DNA of 64,000 bases, from positions 1,074,035 through 1,138,034 of the forward strand of contig AGIF02000001.1 in the NCBI GenBank assembly GCA_000227505.4. Reading direction: 5' to 3'. The notes beneath the pieces were generated by a model. It was not told the origin of the DNA. It did not search any database and saw only the letters and a list, made by a program, of their open reading frames with translations. A program made the position numbers and the translations under genes. Shown piece by piece: positions 25,251-33,600 of this stretch (positions are counted from its first letter, which is position 1; the number at the start of each line of letters is the position of its first letter). The stretch comes from a gamma proteobacterium HIMB55 (lineage in GTDB: Bacteria > Pseudomonadota > Gammaproteobacteria > Pseudomonadales > Halieaceae).

Positions 25251-26960
25251 ATGGACACTACTCACACAAACAACGTGATGCCCTCGCTCACGAACCCTTT
25301 TGATACGCAGGGTAACGACCCGTTGCCATCGACGGATTACCAAGCAGCCGTCGCGCGAGGCACTGAATTACAAGCGCTACCGCAAGCTGCGGCATCCGGC
25401 AGAAACATCCAGCGTCAGCACAGCAAAAACCGGATGACTGTCTGGGAACGCATCGAGTTTTTGGTCGATGAAGAACCCACGATTTTGTATCAAAACTGGG
25501 GCCCTAACCTAGACGGTGCGTCACTCGTGACAGCCGTTGGCCGCATCGATGGGCGGGATGTTGCTATTTATGGACACGATTTCACTGTGCGCGCAGGCTC
25601 GATGGATGCCACCAACGGCGAGAAGCTCGCGCGGCTTTTTGAACTCGCGGGCGAACGGGGCATTCCTCTGGTGGGTCTCAATGACTCTGCGGGCGCTTAC
25701 ATCCCCGCGGGTGTCGGTGGCCTAGACGGTTATGCAGAAGCATTTACAGGGCTTCGTAAAATCTCAGGCGTTGTTCCCAGCATTATGTGCATGTTCGGTT
25801 TTAATGCCGGCGGTGGCAGTTACTTGCCTCGACAGGGCAGTTTCTTGATCCAGCCCAAAGATACGTTTTTTGGTCTGACAGGTCCGGGTGTCGTCAAATC
25901 TGTATTGGGCGAGGATATTACGCCTGACGAGCTGGGCGGTCCTGGGGTTCACAGCCAGACGGGTGTAACAGACTTTGTTGTTGAGGATGAAGTTTCGGCA
26001 CTCCGTAAAGTGCGCGAAATACTGCGGTACCTGCCCGATAACAACGCAGCCGCACCCGACGTGCAAGACTGCTCGGATCCCATCGACCGTAGCACTAGCG
26101 ACATCGATACCTTGTTAAAAACAGCGTTCGAGTCGGCCACTGGATTTAATACGCCTGTTGATAGTTCCATCATCATTCAGCAGCTTTGCGACCATGGAGA
26201 CTTCCTCGAGATACAGGAAGAGCGTGCGAAAAACACCATCACGTGTTTAGGCCGAATAGGTGGCCACGTCGTGGGTTTTGTTGCCAATAACTCGGCGGTC
26301 GCATCGGGGCAGATTGACATTGATGCGGCGCTCAAGAACGCACGGTTCATTCGTTTTTGTAACCTCTACAACATTCCAGTGATGTTCCTAGAGGATACAA
26401 CCGGGTTTTTGCCGGGAAGAGAACAGGAGCACCGCGGCATTGTCCAAGCGGGGCGCGCGATGCTCGATGCTATTGTTGACCTCCGAACGCCGCGGTTCTT
26501 GATTCTTATCAGAAACGCCTTTGGCGGCGCGTATGCGTCCTACAACAACTACCCCACGGGTGCCGACTTGGTTGTTGCGCTTCCAACGACTCGGGTGGCG
26601 GTTATGGGTCCCGCAGGGGTTGAGTACGTCTACAAGGACGAGATCAAAGCAATCCGCGGTTCGGTTAGCGAGCGAGTAGCCGCAACCAAGGCCGAGCTGG
26701 TATCGCAGGGTGTCTCGGCGGACGACGCGCAGGTGCAAGCAGAAGCAAGCATTGCTGAGTGGGCTAAAGCAGCGGAGGCAGATTTAGCAAAGCGGTATGA
26801 ACGCGAAATCATGAATCCAGAAGAGGCGCTTAGTCTTGGCTCGGTATCCCAGATTGTGATGCCACAAGATTTACGTGGGGTCATCGCCAAGCATCTCATG
26901 TTCTGCCTACGTCATTACAAGCCTGAGCCCATGAGTGGCGTTCAGCGCGAATTCCATTAA
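25251..26960 (+). CDS. pccB: Acyl-CoA (probably propionyl-CoA) carboxylase, carboxyltransferase subunit
   Basis: Transfers carboxyl from carboxybiotin to an acyl-CoA. The 569 residues hold both crotonase-fold halves: an N-terminal half with [38 protein letters not shown] and the oxyanion-hole-like [14 protein letters not shown], and a C-terminal half with [37 protein letters not shown] and [12 protein letters not shown]. It is longer than usual PccB (about 510-540), mostly from an N-terminal extension. AAGGA lies 6 bases before the ATG. The downstream biotin carboxylase, epimerase, mutase and MeaB make propionyl-CoA the likely substrate. Confidence 0.9.
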
Positions 26961-26989: not shown

Positions 26990-29764
26990 GTGTCAAACGA
27001 ACACTATTTACATAATCCGCTGATTCACCAAGACCGTCGTCTTGGCAGCAGCGATAGCAGCTGGATTAGCCAGTTTGATTGCACCCACATCAAGCCCCTC
27101 ATCATATGCCGTGGTCCCATTCGCAAAGAGGCGATGGATGTCTTCGACGAAATGGGCATGAACAACTACGGAATTTTGCTTTCAGAGAAGGATTCGATTG
27201 TGTACCCGAGGGCGATCGCTCCGGAATTGAGGACAATCACAGACCCATCGCGCGTGCACAGGGTGAGTGACTACTCAGGTGTCGATAAGGCGGACCGAGA
27301 AGCGCGTATTCAAGAGATTATCCAAATTGCCCACGATAACGGCTACAACGCGATCTTCGCTGGTTATGGCTTCATGGCAGAAGACGAGACCATGGTCGCG
27401 TCGATGGAGAATGCCGGCCTTAACTTTATCGGCCCGTGCTCACGCACTGTGCGGCAAGCAGGCCTCAAGGACGAAGCAAAGCGTACAGCGCTTAAAGCGG
27501 GTGTCTCGGTAACGCCGGGCGTCGACAACGCAACTGCGCTTACTTTACTAAAGAAATATCCCTCAGCTGAGGCACTTACAGCATTCTGCAAGGAGCAAGG
27601 CTTTGATGATATCGACCTCGCTGGCGACGACCTAGAAGAACTTGCAGACCGTGTTCTAAACGCATCCTACAAGGCGGGCGTTGATATCTACTCAATCGAT
27701 GAGCTTATCGAGACGCTTCAAGAGGCTGTTGAGGGTATGAATGATAAGTACCCCAATAACCGCGTACGTCTGAAAGCAATCGGTGGTGGCGGTGGTAAAG
27801 GCCAACGCATTGTTGAACGTGGCGATGCTGCGCGCACGGGCGAGTTAGTCAAAGAGATTTTGCAGGAGGTAAAAGCCTCTGGCGTGGGTGACAACAAGAA
27901 CGTTCTTGTTGAACTCAATATTGAATCGACTCGACACCAAGAAATCCAGGTGATCGGTAACGGCGACTGGTGTATGACGCTGGGCGGTCGTGATTGTTCG
28001 CTGCAAATGCACGAGCAAAAGCTTTTGGAGGTGTCGGTTACTCGCGAATCACTGCTTGAGGCGGCGGAAGAGGTCGCGGCGGCGGGGCTGACCACCGAAG
28101 CAGAGGTGCTGAAAGCTGACGTAGTCACGCTGGATACGATGGAAGAGGAAGCGTCACGATTTGGCGCTGCGGTTGGACTGGATTCGGTCTCGACCTTCGA
28201 GTGTATCGTTGACACAGATAGTCACTTCTTTATGGAGATGAATACGCGGATTCAGGTGGAGCACCGTGTTTCTGAGCTGTGCTATGCGCTGAAGTTTAGT
28301 AATCCAGAGGATGCAAGCCAGAGCTTTGTCGTGAACTCCCTGGTGGAGGCTATGGTCTTGCTTGCAGCACATGGAGCGAAACTGCCCAAGCCGGAGCGAG
28401 TTTTACGTAATAACGACAGCCTAGAGGCCCGGATGAATGCAACCAATGACGCGTTGCAGCCACATGCCGGCGGACAGATCGAGCACTGGTCAGATGCGGT
28501 TGAGGGTGAGATTCGTGACGACCAGGGTATTTGCGTTCATAACCCTGATACCGATGTATTCATGAAATACACCTTGGCGGGCGCCTACGATTCAAATATC
28601 GCATTGATCTTGAGCGTTGGTGATTCACGAGAAACCTCTTATGAGAGGATGGCAGAAATACTGCGAGTCACGACCTTGCGTGGCCGGGACCTGAGTACCA
28701 ACCTCAACTTCCATTACGGCTTGGTACATTGGTTCTTGAATCGTACGGTACACGCGCGACCAACGACGAAATTCATTGTCCCCTACTTGACCGCAGTCGG
28801 TGAGCTTGCTGCAGGCGCTCAGAAGATTGACCTTGAGGCAGCGTGGAAGGCTTATACCAAGGGTTACGGGAAGAACGCAGGGGCTGTTTTAGAGGCGAAG
28901 AAAACGTTAATACTGCGGCCACTGCAGCAGCTCTTAGATTGTCCGCACACACTTTCCGGCTGGTTGAGTGCCAATAAGGGTGCATTTACGACGAACGGCG
29001 GAAAAATTGCATTCGCCGAGAACCCGGTTGACGTGCTGACAGACACCTATCATTTCCTCAATCTAGACAATGAGGGCAGTGCGGCCGCTTCAGAGCAAAT
29101 ATGGTCACACGACGCGAAGATGCTCGATACGGCTGATGCATTCTACCTAGACGCGATCAACGAGCTAGATGTCGATGCGTGGGCTGATCTGTCTGCGAAG
29201 CTTGAAGGTGATGCTCCAACCGGTATGGATGAGGATACATGGGCTGCGATTCAGGGTGCTCACCAAGGGCATCAGGCAGGTTTGTCCTTGCTCTTGTTAT
29301 TGCCTGCACTCGCCCAGCAAACAGGCTTTTATGAGCTTGAGGTGAATTCCGACCTCAGCATATTTATTCCGGACCGCCTCTTGGACGACGACCATCAGGA
29401 TGCAATGGCGAAGGCGCTAGCACCGCCGCCTGTAGCAAATGCAGACGAAATCGTCGCCACCAGCGGCGGTATGTTCTACGGCCGTGAGGCACCAGGCGAG
29501 CCGCTTTATGTGCAGGCCGGTTCGAGCTTTAAAGTGGGTGACCCACTGTTCATTGTTGAGGTCATGAAGATGTTCAACAAAGTGAATGCTCCGTTCGATG
29601 GTGTTGTTGACGAGGTGTTGGTAGAAGGCGATGGCGTCATCATTAAGAAAGGCCAGCCTATTTTTAAAGTGACACCCAACGAGCGCCCAGAAGTCTTGTC
29701 GGAGAGCGAGATTCGCGCGCGTCGTGCCGCGAGTACTGCCGTGCTGATGGACGCGATAGCGTAA
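26990..29764 (+). CDS. Biotin carboxylase/biotin carrier protein of unusual architecture
   Basis: 924 residues, GTG start. The N-terminal part (about 30-530) is an ATP-grasp biotin carboxylase. It retains the glycine loop GGGGGKG (265-271) after Lys262, HEQK, the metal ligands in STFEC (Glu404) and MEMNTRIQVEH (Glu416, Asn418, Arg420). Between PGVDN (176-180) and the glycine loop there are about 85 residues instead of about 30, including an acidic DDIDLAGDDLEELAD stretch. The usual RRHQK and EEAPA become QMHEQK and LEVSV. A biotinyl domain with E-V-M-K-M (Lys860) closes the protein. About 250 residues join the two parts. Typical PccA is about 670 residues. Genome context makes it the partner of the upstream carboxyltransferase. 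Confidence 0.85.
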   Translation: MSNEHYLHNPLIHQDRRLGSSDSSWISQFDCTHIKPLIICRGPIRKEAMDVFDEMGMNNYGILLSEKDSIVYPRAIAPELRTITDPSRVHRVSDYSGVDKADREARIQEIIQIAHDNGYNAIFAGYGFMAEDETMVASMENAGLNFIGPCSRTVRQAGLKDEAKRTALKAGVSVTPGVDNATALTLLKKYPSAEALTAFCKEQGFDDIDLAGDDLEELADRVLNASYKAGVDIYSIDELIETLQEAVEGMNDKYPNNRVRLKAIGGGGGKGQRIVERGDAARTGELVKEILQEVKASGVGDNKNVLVELNIESTRHQEIQVIGNGDWCMTLGGRDCSLQMHEQKLLEVSVTRESLLEAAEEVAAAGLTTEAEVLKADVVTLDTMEEEASRFGAAVGLDSVSTFECIVDTDSHFFMEMNTRIQVEHRVSELCYALKFSNPEDASQSFVVNSLVEAMVLLAAHGAKLPKPERVLRNNDSLEARMNATNDALQPHAGGQIEHWSDAVEGEIRDDQGICVHNPDTDVFMKYTLAGAYDSNIALILSVGDSRETSYERMAEILRVTTLRGRDLSTNLNFHYGLVHWFLNRTVHARPTTKFIVPYLTAVGELAAGAQKIDLEAAWKAYTKGYGKNAGAVLEAKKTLILRPLQQLLDCPHTLSGWLSANKGAFTTNGGKIAFAENPVDVLTDTYHFLNLDNEGSAAASEQIWSHDAKMLDTADAFYLDAINELDVDAWADLSAKLEGDAPTGMDEDTWAAIQGAHQGHQAGLSLLLLLPALAQQTGFYELEVNSDLSIFIPDRLLDDDHQDAMAKALAPPPVANADEIVATSGGMFYGREAPGEPLYVQAGSSFKVGDPLFIVEVMKMFNKVNAPFDGVVDEVLVEGDGVIIKKGQPIFKVTPNERPEVLSESEIRARRAASTAVLMDAIA

Positions 29765-29777
29765 CGAGGAAGATACA

Positions 29778-30188
29778 ATGATTACTGGCTTGGACCACAT
29801 AGCGATTGCTGTCCCTGATTTAGAGGCGGCTATTGAGCGTTTCATGACTGACTTCCAGCTCGATTATGAGGGCACGGAACCGGTAGAGGCCGCTAAGACT
29901 TCTACCGCTTTCTTTCCCTTACCGCCCTCAAGCATAGAGCTGGTACATCCGCTACGTGGTGAGGGTCCTATTGCGAAGTATCTCGAAAAACGCGGAGGCG
30001 GCATTCATCACTTGTGCTTCAGAACCAACGATATCGACGCCGACGTTGAGCGTCTAAAGGCAAAGGGCTATCAGTTCCTCAGCGATGCACCGACACCAGG
30101 TGCGCATGGAGCGCGCGTCATCTTTATTCACCCCAAGAGCTGTGACGGTGTTCTCGTTGAACTCTCTCAGCCGCAGGAAGACCATTAA
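29778..30188 (+). CDS. mce: Methylmalonyl-CoA epimerase
   Basis: Interconverts (S)- and (R)-methylmalonyl-CoA so that the carboxylase product can enter the mutase. 136 residues of the vicinal-oxygen-chelate fold with paired beta-alpha-beta modules: metal ligand His7 in GLDHIAIAV, His77/His78 in GGGIHHLCF, and the final glutamate in VLVELSQ. GAGGAAG precedes the start. Its stop shares one base with the mutase start (TAATG), so the two are translated as a pair. Confidence 0.93.
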
Positions 30189-32335
30189 TGTCGATTTATG
30201 ATCCTAGTAAGGCAAACAAAGAAAATTGGGCGTCGCTCGTAGAAAAGCAGAGTAAAGGCCTTACGCCAGACGAATTCACTTGGTTTACACCCGAAGATAT
30301 TCCCATGAAGGTACTCTACACCGCGGAGGACACGGCTGAACTGCCCTATACGGATACGATGCCGGGCATGAGTCCCTACATTCGCGGCCCACAGGCAACG
30401 ATGTATGCCGGTCGACGTTGGACGATTCGGCAGTATGCGGGCTTCTCAACGGCAGAAGAGAGCAACGCGTTCTATCGTAAGGCCCTGGCTGCAGGCGGAC
30501 AGGGTGTGTCGGTTGCCTTTGACCTCGCTACACACCGCGGTTACGACTCAGATCACCCTCGTGTCGCAGGTGATGTTGGTAAAGCGGGAGTTGCGGTTGA
30601 TTCTGTCGAAGATATGAAGGTGCTATTCGACGGTATTCCCCTCGACAAGGTGTCAGTCTCGATGACGATGAATGGCGCGGTTCTGCCTGTTCTCGCAGGT
30701 TATATCGTTGCCGCCGAGGAGCAGGGCGTTGGACCAGAGGCTCTGGCTGGCACCATTCAGAACGATATTCTGAAAGAGTTCATGGTGCGCAATACCTACA
30801 TCTACCCGCCATCGCCCAGCATGCGCATCATCGGTGACATCATTGCTTATTGCTCCAAGAACATGCCTCGGTTTAACACCATATCGATTTCTGGCTATCA
30901 CATGCAGGAAGCGGGCGCGAATGCAGCGCTCGAGCTGGCTTACACACTTGCTGATGGTAAGGAATATATCCGTACCGCGATCGCGGCAGGACTCAATATC
31001 GACGATTTCGCACCCAGACTGTCGTTTTTCTGGGGCATCGGCATGAATTTTTACATGGAAATCGCCAAGATGCGTGCCGCGCGACTCTTGTGGGCGGAGA
31101 TCGTTGGCGAGTTCTCACCGAGCAATCCGAAAAGCTCGATGTTGAGAACACACTGCCAGACGTCCGGTTGGTCACTGACAGAGCAGGATCCTTACAACAA
31201 TATTGTGCGAACAACTATCGAGGCGATGGCCGCCGTATTTGGAGGCACGCAAAGCCTTCACACGAATGCTCTCGACGAAGCGATCGCTTTACCCTCAGAT
31301 TTTGCGGCAAGAATCGCGCGCAATACGCAGTTAGTCCTTCAAGAAGAAACAGGCATTAGCCAGGTGGTAGACCCTTGGGGTGGCTCCTACATGATGGAGT
31401 CACTAACCAACGAGATTGCCGAGAAAGCTCGAGCGCTAATTGCTGAGGTAGAGGACGCTGGCGGTATGGCACAGGCCATCGAGACGGGCCTACCAAAGCT
31501 CCGAATCGAAGAAGCTGCAGCTAAAAAGCAAGCACGTATCGACCGGGGCGAAGACGTCATCGTTGGCGTAAATAAATATCAAGTCGATGAACAGGATGAG
31601 GTGGATATTCTTGAGGTCGATAACGATGCAGTGCGCGACTCCCAAATCGCGAGTCTAAAGCAGATCCGTGATGCGCGCGATACTGCAGCGGTCACTGCGT
31701 GTCTTGAGGCTCTTTCAGCAGCGGCAGAGACGGGTGAGGGCAATCTTCTCGAGCTTGCGGTGAACGCCACACGACACCGTGCTACGGTAGGAGAGATATC
31801 GGATGCACTAGAAAAGCATTTCGGCCGTTTCGTGGCGAGCGCACAAACTGTATCGGGTGTGTATGGTGCTGCGTACGAACAGGATGAAGACTGGAAGCAA
31901 ATTGCTATGGACATCGAGAGCTTTGTTGCACAACACGGCAGACGTCCTCGCTTGCTCGTTGCCAAAATGGGGCAGGACGGTCACGACCGTGGTGCAAAAG
32001 TGGTTGCCACAGCGTTTGCCGACGTTGGTTTTGACGTCGATTTGTCGCCGATGTTCTCGACGCCCGAAGAAGTAGCCCGACAAGCCATTGAGAACGATGT
32101 ACATATCGTTGGAGCGTCGAGTCTCGCGGCAGGCCATAAGACACTCGTACCGCAACTGATTGAAGCGCTTAAGGCCGAGGGTGCGGACGATATTGTTGTG
32201 ATCGCAGGGGGCGTTATTCCTCAGCAGGATTACCAGTACTTGTACGACGCCGGGGTGACGCTAATCTTTGGCCCGGGGACGCCAATTCCTGAAGCCGCAC
32301 GAAAGGTCCTTGATGCCGTTAACGCTAACAGCTGA
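30188..32335 (+). CDS. scpA: Methylmalonyl-CoA mutase, adenosylcobalamin-dependent
   Basis: Rearranges (R)-methylmalonyl-CoA to succinyl-CoA, feeding the TCA cycle. The single 715-residue chain holds the TIM-barrel substrate domain ([19 protein letters not shown]-like stretch near 75, [44 protein letters not shown]) and a C-terminal B12 domain with Asp597-Gly-His599-Asp-Arg-Gly602, where His599 is the lower cobalt ligand. Length and order match E. coli Sbm/ScpA. It is therefore a homodimeric type. It overlaps the epimerase by one base and MeaB by about 23. Confidence 0.95.
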
Positions 32336-33287
32336 GAGCGTACTTTCGGGTAATCGTCGAGCGCTTGCTAAGGCGATTACCCTAGTAGAAAGCTCACGCC
32401 CTGAGGATCGTGAGGCCTCACAGGTTCTGCTCAATCAATTATTGCCACATACCGGGAAGAGCCTACGCATCGGCATAACAGGCGTTCCCGGCGTCGGTAA
32501 ATCGACTTTTATCGAGGCATTCGGGCAGCATCTAATCTCGGAAGGACATAAAGTCGCTGTGCTGGCCGTCGATCCCAGCTCGCCCATGGCGGGTGGCTCC
32601 ATTTTGGGTGATAAAACGCGGATGGAACTCTTGTCGCGCGATCCCAACGCCTTCATTCGCCCCTCGCCAGCGGGTAGAGCACTGGGTGGCGTGGCACTCA
32701 AAACGCGAGAATCCATGTTGTTGTGTGAGGCCGCAGGCTTCGATGTGGTGCTCGTTGAGACGGTTGGCGTGGGTCAGTCGGAACATCAAGTTTCGAGTAT
32801 GGTCGATTTCTTCTTAATGCTATTGCTCCCCGGTGGGGGTGATGAGCTTCAAGGCATCAAGAAAGGCATTTTGGAACTCGCCGACGCCATTATGATCAAC
32901 AAGGCCGATGGCGAGAGCGCGAGCTTAGCGCGTAAGACCAAACTGCATTACCAGAGCGCCATGTCGTTACTGGCAAGTAACGACTTTTGGAAGCCTGAGG
33001 TACACACCTGCTCCGCGCTTGAGCATGATGGCATTGCTGATTGCTGGTCGATGATGAAGCGCTACCAGCAGGAGGCCACTGAGCGTGGTGCGCTGTCTCA
33101 GACTCGCGCTGAGCAGAACTTGCAGTGGATGACGCAGCTCATGGATGAAATGCTGCGTCAGCAACTCACGGACAATACGACCATTCGTGAGTCGCTGCCT
33201 GCTATTAAAGAGCAGGTTAGTGCGGGCACGCTGACACCGGTGAGTGCCGCCGTGAATGTCATCAACATGTTGAACGAGCACCCGTAG
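32313..33287 (+). CDS. meaB: Methylmalonyl-CoA mutase-associated GTPase MeaB (ArgK family)
   Basis: G-protein chaperone that loads and protects the B12 cofactor of the mutase. I start it at ATG 32313 (324 residues, [13 protein letters not shown]) because GAAAGG lies about 10 bases upstream; the longer frame from 32268 lies wholly within the mutase and adds no family residues. P-loop GVPGVGKST is at 57-65, followed by DPSSP, GDKTRM, the Walker [11 protein letters not shown] and the guanine-specificity NKAD. It overlaps the end of the mutase gene by 23 bases. Confidence 0.93.
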
Positions 33288-33291
33288 GTAC

Positions 33292-33600
33292 ATGCGTTTC
33301 TTGGCCTTGGATAAATTGATTAATCTCGAGGACGGCTACCGAAGACGCTTCAAGATTGATTCTCTCGATCTCATCCTTGCAAAGGAGGGTGGCGATATCT
33401 TCGCGTTTGCTGCCGTGTGTCCGCATCAAGAGCAGTCATTGGATGACGCGATCATTGAAAATGAGGTTGTGACCTGTCCGCGCCACGGCTTTGGCTTCTC
33501 TCTTAGGTCTGGTGCACACGTCGAAGGTTTTTGCGCATCACTGCCCGTTTATGAAGTGCATTTCGAGGGCAACGAGGTTGGGGTTTTACTCGGACATTAA
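33292..33600 (+). CDS. Small Rieske [2Fe-2S] protein
   Basis: 102 residues with a complete Rieske cluster site: Cys43-Pro-His45 and Cys62-x2-His65 (CPRHGFGF). No signal peptide or membrane helix is seen, so it is a soluble cytoplasmic ferredoxin of the NirD/BphF type. It begins 4 bases after meaB and ends 6 bases before the convergent roxA. Small Rieske proteins normally carry electrons to an oxygenase or reductase, but no such partner is next to it, so its job is unknown. Co-transcription with the propionyl-CoA genes is inferred from spacing. Confidence 0.85.
   Translation: MRFLALDKLINLEDGYRRRFKIDSLDLILAKEGGDIFAFAAVCPHQEQSLDDAIIENEVVTCPRHGFGFSLRSGAHVEGFCASLPVYEVHFEGNEVGVLLGH

Follow-up and report, generated by a model that had tools for sequence, protein, structure and literature searches.

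The 924-residue protein encoded in the window, i.e. the complete 64,000-nucleotide stretch of DNA analysed here, is most likely the alpha chain of a propionyl-CoA carboxylase with two subunits that belongs to a deep, apparently undescribed branch, with the 569-residue carboxyltransferase encoded just before it as the beta subunit. We estimate the probability of this reading at roughly 0.78. It is the best reading because the gene is clustered with a methylmalonyl-CoA epimerase, a methylmalonyl-CoA mutase and MeaB, because the family co-occurs with the mutase, and because the host genome contains only three biotin carboxylase proteins: AccC, an MccA/GccA-type protein beside its own carboxyltransferase (locus L130), and the 924-residue protein.

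The genes are ordered carboxyltransferase, 924-residue subunit, epimerase, mutase and MeaB, see Table 1. The initial annotation, which was made from the sequence alone, overlooked this cluster, the clearest functional clue. Linkage to the epimerase and mutase is a usual, although not strictly defining, trait of propionyl-CoA carboxylases (PCC). Most of the relatives that were fetched retain the order, while in some it is partly lost or rearranged, and in SAR324 the carboxyltransferase is located elsewhere in the genome. A PCC-like function is thus well supported by the context, although no BT domain like that of the ordinary enzymes was found by Pfam or in the predicted fold. A small Rieske ferredoxin-like gene (33292-33600) directly follows MeaB, as it also does at another locus, L027.

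In the proposed mechanism the biotin carboxylase (BC) domain would use ATP and bicarbonate to carboxylate the biotin on Lys860, and the carrier domain would swing the carboxybiotin to the beta subunit, where propionyl-CoA would be converted to methylmalonyl-CoA. The epimerase and the B12-dependent mutase, guarded by MeaB, would then form succinyl-CoA. Here we infer the substrate, the docking role discussed below and the oligomeric state.

Table 1. Features of the putative carboxylase cluster, with positions in the window, and one distant relative (positions in its own locus).
Feature	Position	Strand	Evidence or remark
Carboxyltransferase (beta) subunit, 569 residues, PccB-related	25251-26960	+	Pfam Carboxyl_trans, 357.7 bits
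Alpha subunit (biotin carboxylase and biotin carrier)	26990-29764	+	GTG start, 924 residues, uninterrupted frame
BC N-terminal part to the PG hinge, residues 33-180	27086-27529	+	Pfam Biotin_carb_N at residues 102-152; alignment
Hinge insert (residues 181-256), adding about 60 residues as predicted helices	27530-27757	+	Length comparison, model
Remaining ATP-grasp/BC catalytic domain, residues 257-583, all catalytic residues	27758-28738	+	Pfam CPSase_L_D2, 71 bits
K344-E404 stretch, longer by about 22 residues (second insertion)	28022-28198	+	59 vs 37 residues; longer helix 368-395
Helical connector domain, residues 584-813, at the BT position	28739-29428	+	AlphaFold2; no database match
Biotin carrier domain, residues 814-897	29429-29680	+	Pfam Biotin_lipoyl, 48.9 bits
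Lys860 codon, expected biotinylation site (EVMKM)	29567-29569	+	Invariant in family alignment
Methylmalonyl-CoA epimerase	29778-30188	+	TIGR03081, 137.6 bits, above cut-off 114.95
Methylmalonyl-CoA mutase, single chain	30188-32335	+	NF006944, 1281.7 bits, above cut-off
MeaB, mutase-associated GTPase	32313-33287	+	NF006958, 473.2 bits, above cut-off
Distant 740-residue relative, L025	L025:5930-8152		Possible intermediate or reduced form

Catalytic residues, insertions and reading frame

The catalytic residues, the BC fold and the MKM-type carrier domain place the protein in the biotin-dependent carboxylase superfamily. An alignment with E. coli AccC confirms the numbering proposed earlier for the catalytic residues (K262=K159, E404=E276, E416=E288, N418=N290, R420=R292), and further equivalents are retained (K160=K116, H316=H209, K344=K238, E424=E296, R481=R338), as is Q294 of AccC. 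The catalytic residues are present in all 16 family members compared. Lys860, which had been suggested as the biotinyl residue, is found in the context VEVMKMFNK. The altered motifs QMHEQK and LEVSV are also real and are shared by most family members. Compared with E. coli AccC, H236 is replaced by Glu, R234 by Met, R235 by His, K202 by Leu, R16 by Glu and F363 by Gly; His236 contacts the nucleotide in the E. coli enzyme, where R16 and F363 are part of the dimer interface. The change at His236 counts against the favoured reading.

Two insertions are found in the catalytic domain. The spacing between the PG hinge and the GGGG motif is 88 residues here and 86-101 residues in 16 family members, compared to 27-29 in 76 out of 76 ordinary biotin carboxylases, which agrees with the original estimate of about 85 between PGVDN and GGGGGKG against about 30 in AccC. 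The insert had been described as an enlargement of the ATP-grasp B region. It exists, but it is located after the PG hinge and ahead of the Lys159 strand (E. coli numbering), i.e. before the B subdomain proper, and the second insertion, between K344 and E404, had been missed. In the AlphaFold2 model the hinge insert forms helices at residues 181-189, 193-203, 215-229 and 236-253.

Could the unusual layout be an artefact, with sequencing errors, frameshifts or a misplaced start having altered an ordinary PccA? The Pfam scores are indeed weak, with a partial match to Biotin_carb_N and 25.7 bits for Biotin_carb_C, below the cut-off of 32.4. However, the same length and features are preserved in about 90 genomes, and the folded model is confident. 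In comparisons with close relatives, pS is about 0.8 in both the insert and the connector, whereas pN is 0.14-0.23 for the former and 0.14-0.30 for the latter, which shows that the two regions are translated and under constraint. They are less tightly constrained than the catalytic parts; the connector is 57-79% identical among close relatives, compared to 87-94% for the catalytic parts. As the features are in frame, under strong purifying selection and conserved, we reject a frameshift, and the chance that the gene is such an artefact is practically negligible.

The predicted helical connector

A stretch of about 250 residues ahead of the biotin domain was previously regarded as a linker. The long stretch is there, but it comprises about 230 residues and is predicted to be a folded domain. 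It had also been overlooked that ordinary PccA and MccA have a domain between BC and the biotin carrier (BCCP). In PCC and in the 3-methylcrotonyl-CoA (MCC) and geranyl-CoA (GCC) carboxylases this is the BT domain, in which an antiparallel beta barrel encloses a helix and which is in contact with the beta subunit (PMC4673880; PMC10148081). It measures 117-149 residues in ordinary two-subunit enzymes, compared to about 230-250 for the connector here.

AlphaFold2 models the whole chain with a pLDDT of 88.2 and a pTM of 0.89, and the connector alone with 87.6 and 0.83, respectively. According to both predictions the connector is all-alpha, and the isolated domain has about nine helices and one hairpin. 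With Foldseek, the BC part matches AccC structures with a TMt of about 0.83, and for the complete model the hit with the best E-value is 9yx2, a mycobacterial long-chain acyl-CoA carboxylase complex. The connector itself has no match by fold in the PDB (best E 0.29, probability 0.08), and by sequence nothing credible was found for it in Pfam, NCBIfam, PHROGs or the PDB. Searched on their own, neither the hinge insert nor the connector matches Pfam. The BT profiles PF18140 and PF21139 do not match the connector at E<=10, while five of the seven ordinary proteins used as a control match PF21139 at E<=0.01. By both the missing Pfam match and the predicted all-alpha fold, as opposed to a beta barrel, the connector therefore differs from the BT domain of PccA.

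In the model the connector sits where the BT domain would be, and it probably takes over the docking role as well; the extra helices of the hinge are probably part of this particular mode of assembly too. The initial annotation suggested that the branch may have its own regulation or assembly. The assembly part is plausible, because a predicted helical domain of unmatched fold appears to replace the docking domain. Should the connector indeed dock the beta subunit, biotin carboxylases would have acquired their subunit coupling at least twice, through unrelated domains.

In the distant relative L025 (740 residues) the hinge insert is present, but the connector is largely missing. Its BC end is separated from the biotin by 156 residues, compared to 280-308 in other members, so the connector was either lost or not yet gained there, and it is not indispensable in every member. 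As L025 nevertheless adjoins the same type of beta subunit, the connector might be an additional regulatory or scaffolding domain, with docking through the hinge insert, the BCCP or an altered beta subunit, and its faster evolution compared to the catalytic parts would fit such a role. The connector stands precisely at the BT position, however, and BT domains are also poorly conserved in sequence among known enzymes (PMC4673880). We regard a regulatory or scaffolding role as unlikely, and it concerns the connector only, being compatible with a propionyl-CoA carboxylase.

Relationship to known carboxylases

No NCBIfam model reaches its curated cut-off on the 924-residue protein. The highest scores are 188.4 bits for PRK12999 (pyruvate carboxylase; cut-off 965), 171.2 for PRK08591 (597) and 161.9 for accC TIGR00514 (626.5). 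Model-based annotation gives the family no specific name.

We built a tree of the BC domain with the insert columns removed. A branch of about five changes per site (2.56 + 2.48) with support 100 separates the family from the rest. With E. coli CarB as the root, the family is again one clade (100/99); the monophyly of the others is weak (62/87), so the family may lie either outside or among the other biotin carboxylases. The carboxyltransferases of the family likewise group in a single clade (support 100), which joins the PccB/MmdA-type at 86, on a long branch and apart from the MCC-type. That both subunits are deep branches distinct from ordinary AccC, PccA, MccA and PccB is well supported by these trees. 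The proposal of a separate acyl-CoA carboxylase branch is therefore strengthened by single clades on very long branches for both subunits, together with the order-wide distribution. No account of the variant was found in the open-licence PMC papers searched, which is weak evidence of absence.

Among the closest known systems, PccA/PccB (alpha6beta6; Ruegeria/Roseobacter, human, Leishmania) has the same plan of a BC-connector-BCCP alpha subunit and a carboxyltransferase beta subunit, the closest carboxyltransferase branch and the same clustering with a methylmalonyl-CoA mutase module. It differs by having a BT domain where the family has a 230-residue helical connector plus the hinge insert of about 60 residues, and QRRHQK where the family has QMHEQK; the BC domains are at most about 31% identical. 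MCC and GCC share the BC-connector-BCCP layout but have carboxyltransferase signatures unlike those of the family, and the genome encodes an MCC/GCC-type protein in addition (L130); neither a carboxyltransferase of that kind nor a BT domain was found here. E. coli AccC has the fold and the catalytic residues in common, but unlike the 924-residue protein its chain has no connector or BCCP. The actinobacterial acyl-CoA carboxylases, including the mycobacterial complex 9yx2, also show divergent subunit interfaces within one superfamily, but the connector matches no solved structure, 9yx2 included, either in sequence or in fold.

The solved structures nearest to the 569-residue carboxyltransferase are PccB-type, and it carries two family signatures of its own, one of which is GGAYAS(Y/F)N. 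At the position of Asp422 in S. coelicolor PccB, an established determinant of substrate selectivity, the protein has Ala and the SAR324 relative Cys, whereas the ordinary PccB of the order has Asp. Other short acyl-CoAs are therefore possible as substrates.

Distribution and proposed role

Within the order, 88 of the 245 genomes contain the family, and 85 of these 88 also have a full-type mutase. The mutase search gave 110 hits in the 245 genomes; 14 weaker ones, judged from score and frame length to be mostly IcmF-like fused chains, were set aside. Among the remaining 96 genomes with a true methylmalonyl-CoA mutase, 85 carry the family (Fisher p 3e-49, uncorrected for relatedness), and seven of the other eleven have the ordinary BT-type enzyme.

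Ordinary PCC with a BT domain (PF18140) is found in only eight of the 245 genomes. Seven, all without the new type, belong to a single taxonomic family (f122); PccB-PccA adjoin the mutase and MeaB there in all four genomes read, which favours the propionyl-CoA reading of the new type. In the eighth (G597) a fragment of an ordinary PccA lies next to the mutase where a contig ends (L145:5610-6278), and the new type is on another contig, which may reflect a mixed assembly or a replacement.

Named relatives with homologues include, among the matches listed, Zhongshania and a Cellvibrionaceae MAG. Outside the order the family occurs in seven out of eight genomes of the taxonomic family of a Leptospiraceae MAG and, among the matches listed, in SAR324 and in a MAG labelled Deltaproteobacteria. 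As this range comes from a contig scan, the family occurs in at least these groups. One other genome was positive in a sample of 274 from the class. In 398 genomes across the phylum both the family and the connector profile were found only in the host genome, and a plasmid search gave no match. In one Leptospiraceae MAG (UBA2033) the gene is split into two ORFs of 193 and 641 residues (L037:7974-10608), while it is a single frame in the others of the group.

For much of the order, the family appears to be the regular form of the enzyme. In a survey of 69 Gammaproteobacteria from 2011 the alpha and beta subunits of PCC were recorded as absent (PMC3199775, Table 1 therein), and the family is a candidate enzyme for gammaproteobacterial genomes that have methylmalonyl-CoA mutase but no ordinary PCC. 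Going further, we see an even chance for the complete picture, partly based on the models: a deep BC lineage and a matching carboxyltransferase lineage that would dock via a helical domain of unseen fold, forming a different holoenzyme that much of the Pseudomonadales would use as its standard propionyl-CoA carboxylase, with relatives in the Leptospiraceae-labelled group and SAR324.

A carbon-fixation cycle has been proposed for Luminiphilus MAGs (PMC9802188), and the enzyme could instead provide its propionyl-CoA, perhaps acetyl-CoA, carboxylase step. The host genome contains reaction-centre genes and a homologue of 4-hydroxybutyryl-CoA dehydratase, and the selectivity position of the carboxyltransferase holds a small residue. 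Against this, the genome has its own AccC and AccA/AccD-type matches, the family is spread across many families of the order, and the dehydratase homologue lies among catabolic-looking genes. We consider this role quite improbable compared to propionyl-CoA carboxylation ahead of the epimerase and mutase. Still, the family is a candidate for that carboxylase step, so a part of the Luminiphilus proposal can be tested with one purified enzyme.

The reaction-centre genes are two adjacent photosynthetic subunit genes (G000:C1:643428-645090), so the host is probably a photoheterotroph. Taken with the dehydratase homologue and relatives such as Zhongshania and the Cellvibrionaceae MAG, they point to a probable Luminiphilus-like member of the Halieaceae (order Pseudomonadales). 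The homologue of 4-hydroxybutyryl-CoA dehydratase/vinylacetyl-CoA isomerase (L131:11455-13001, G000:C1 ~2199454-2201000) scores 711 bits to PDB 6vjr. Its neighbours are a carboxyltransferase with no BC partner, a BVMO-like flavoprotein and an esterase, a catabolic-looking neighbourhood that bears on the HP/HB cycle proposed for Luminiphilus (PMC9802188). The host genome encodes two very divergent carboxyltransferases (L131:6558-8111 and L132:6113-7636) that have no adjacent BC or BCCP gene.
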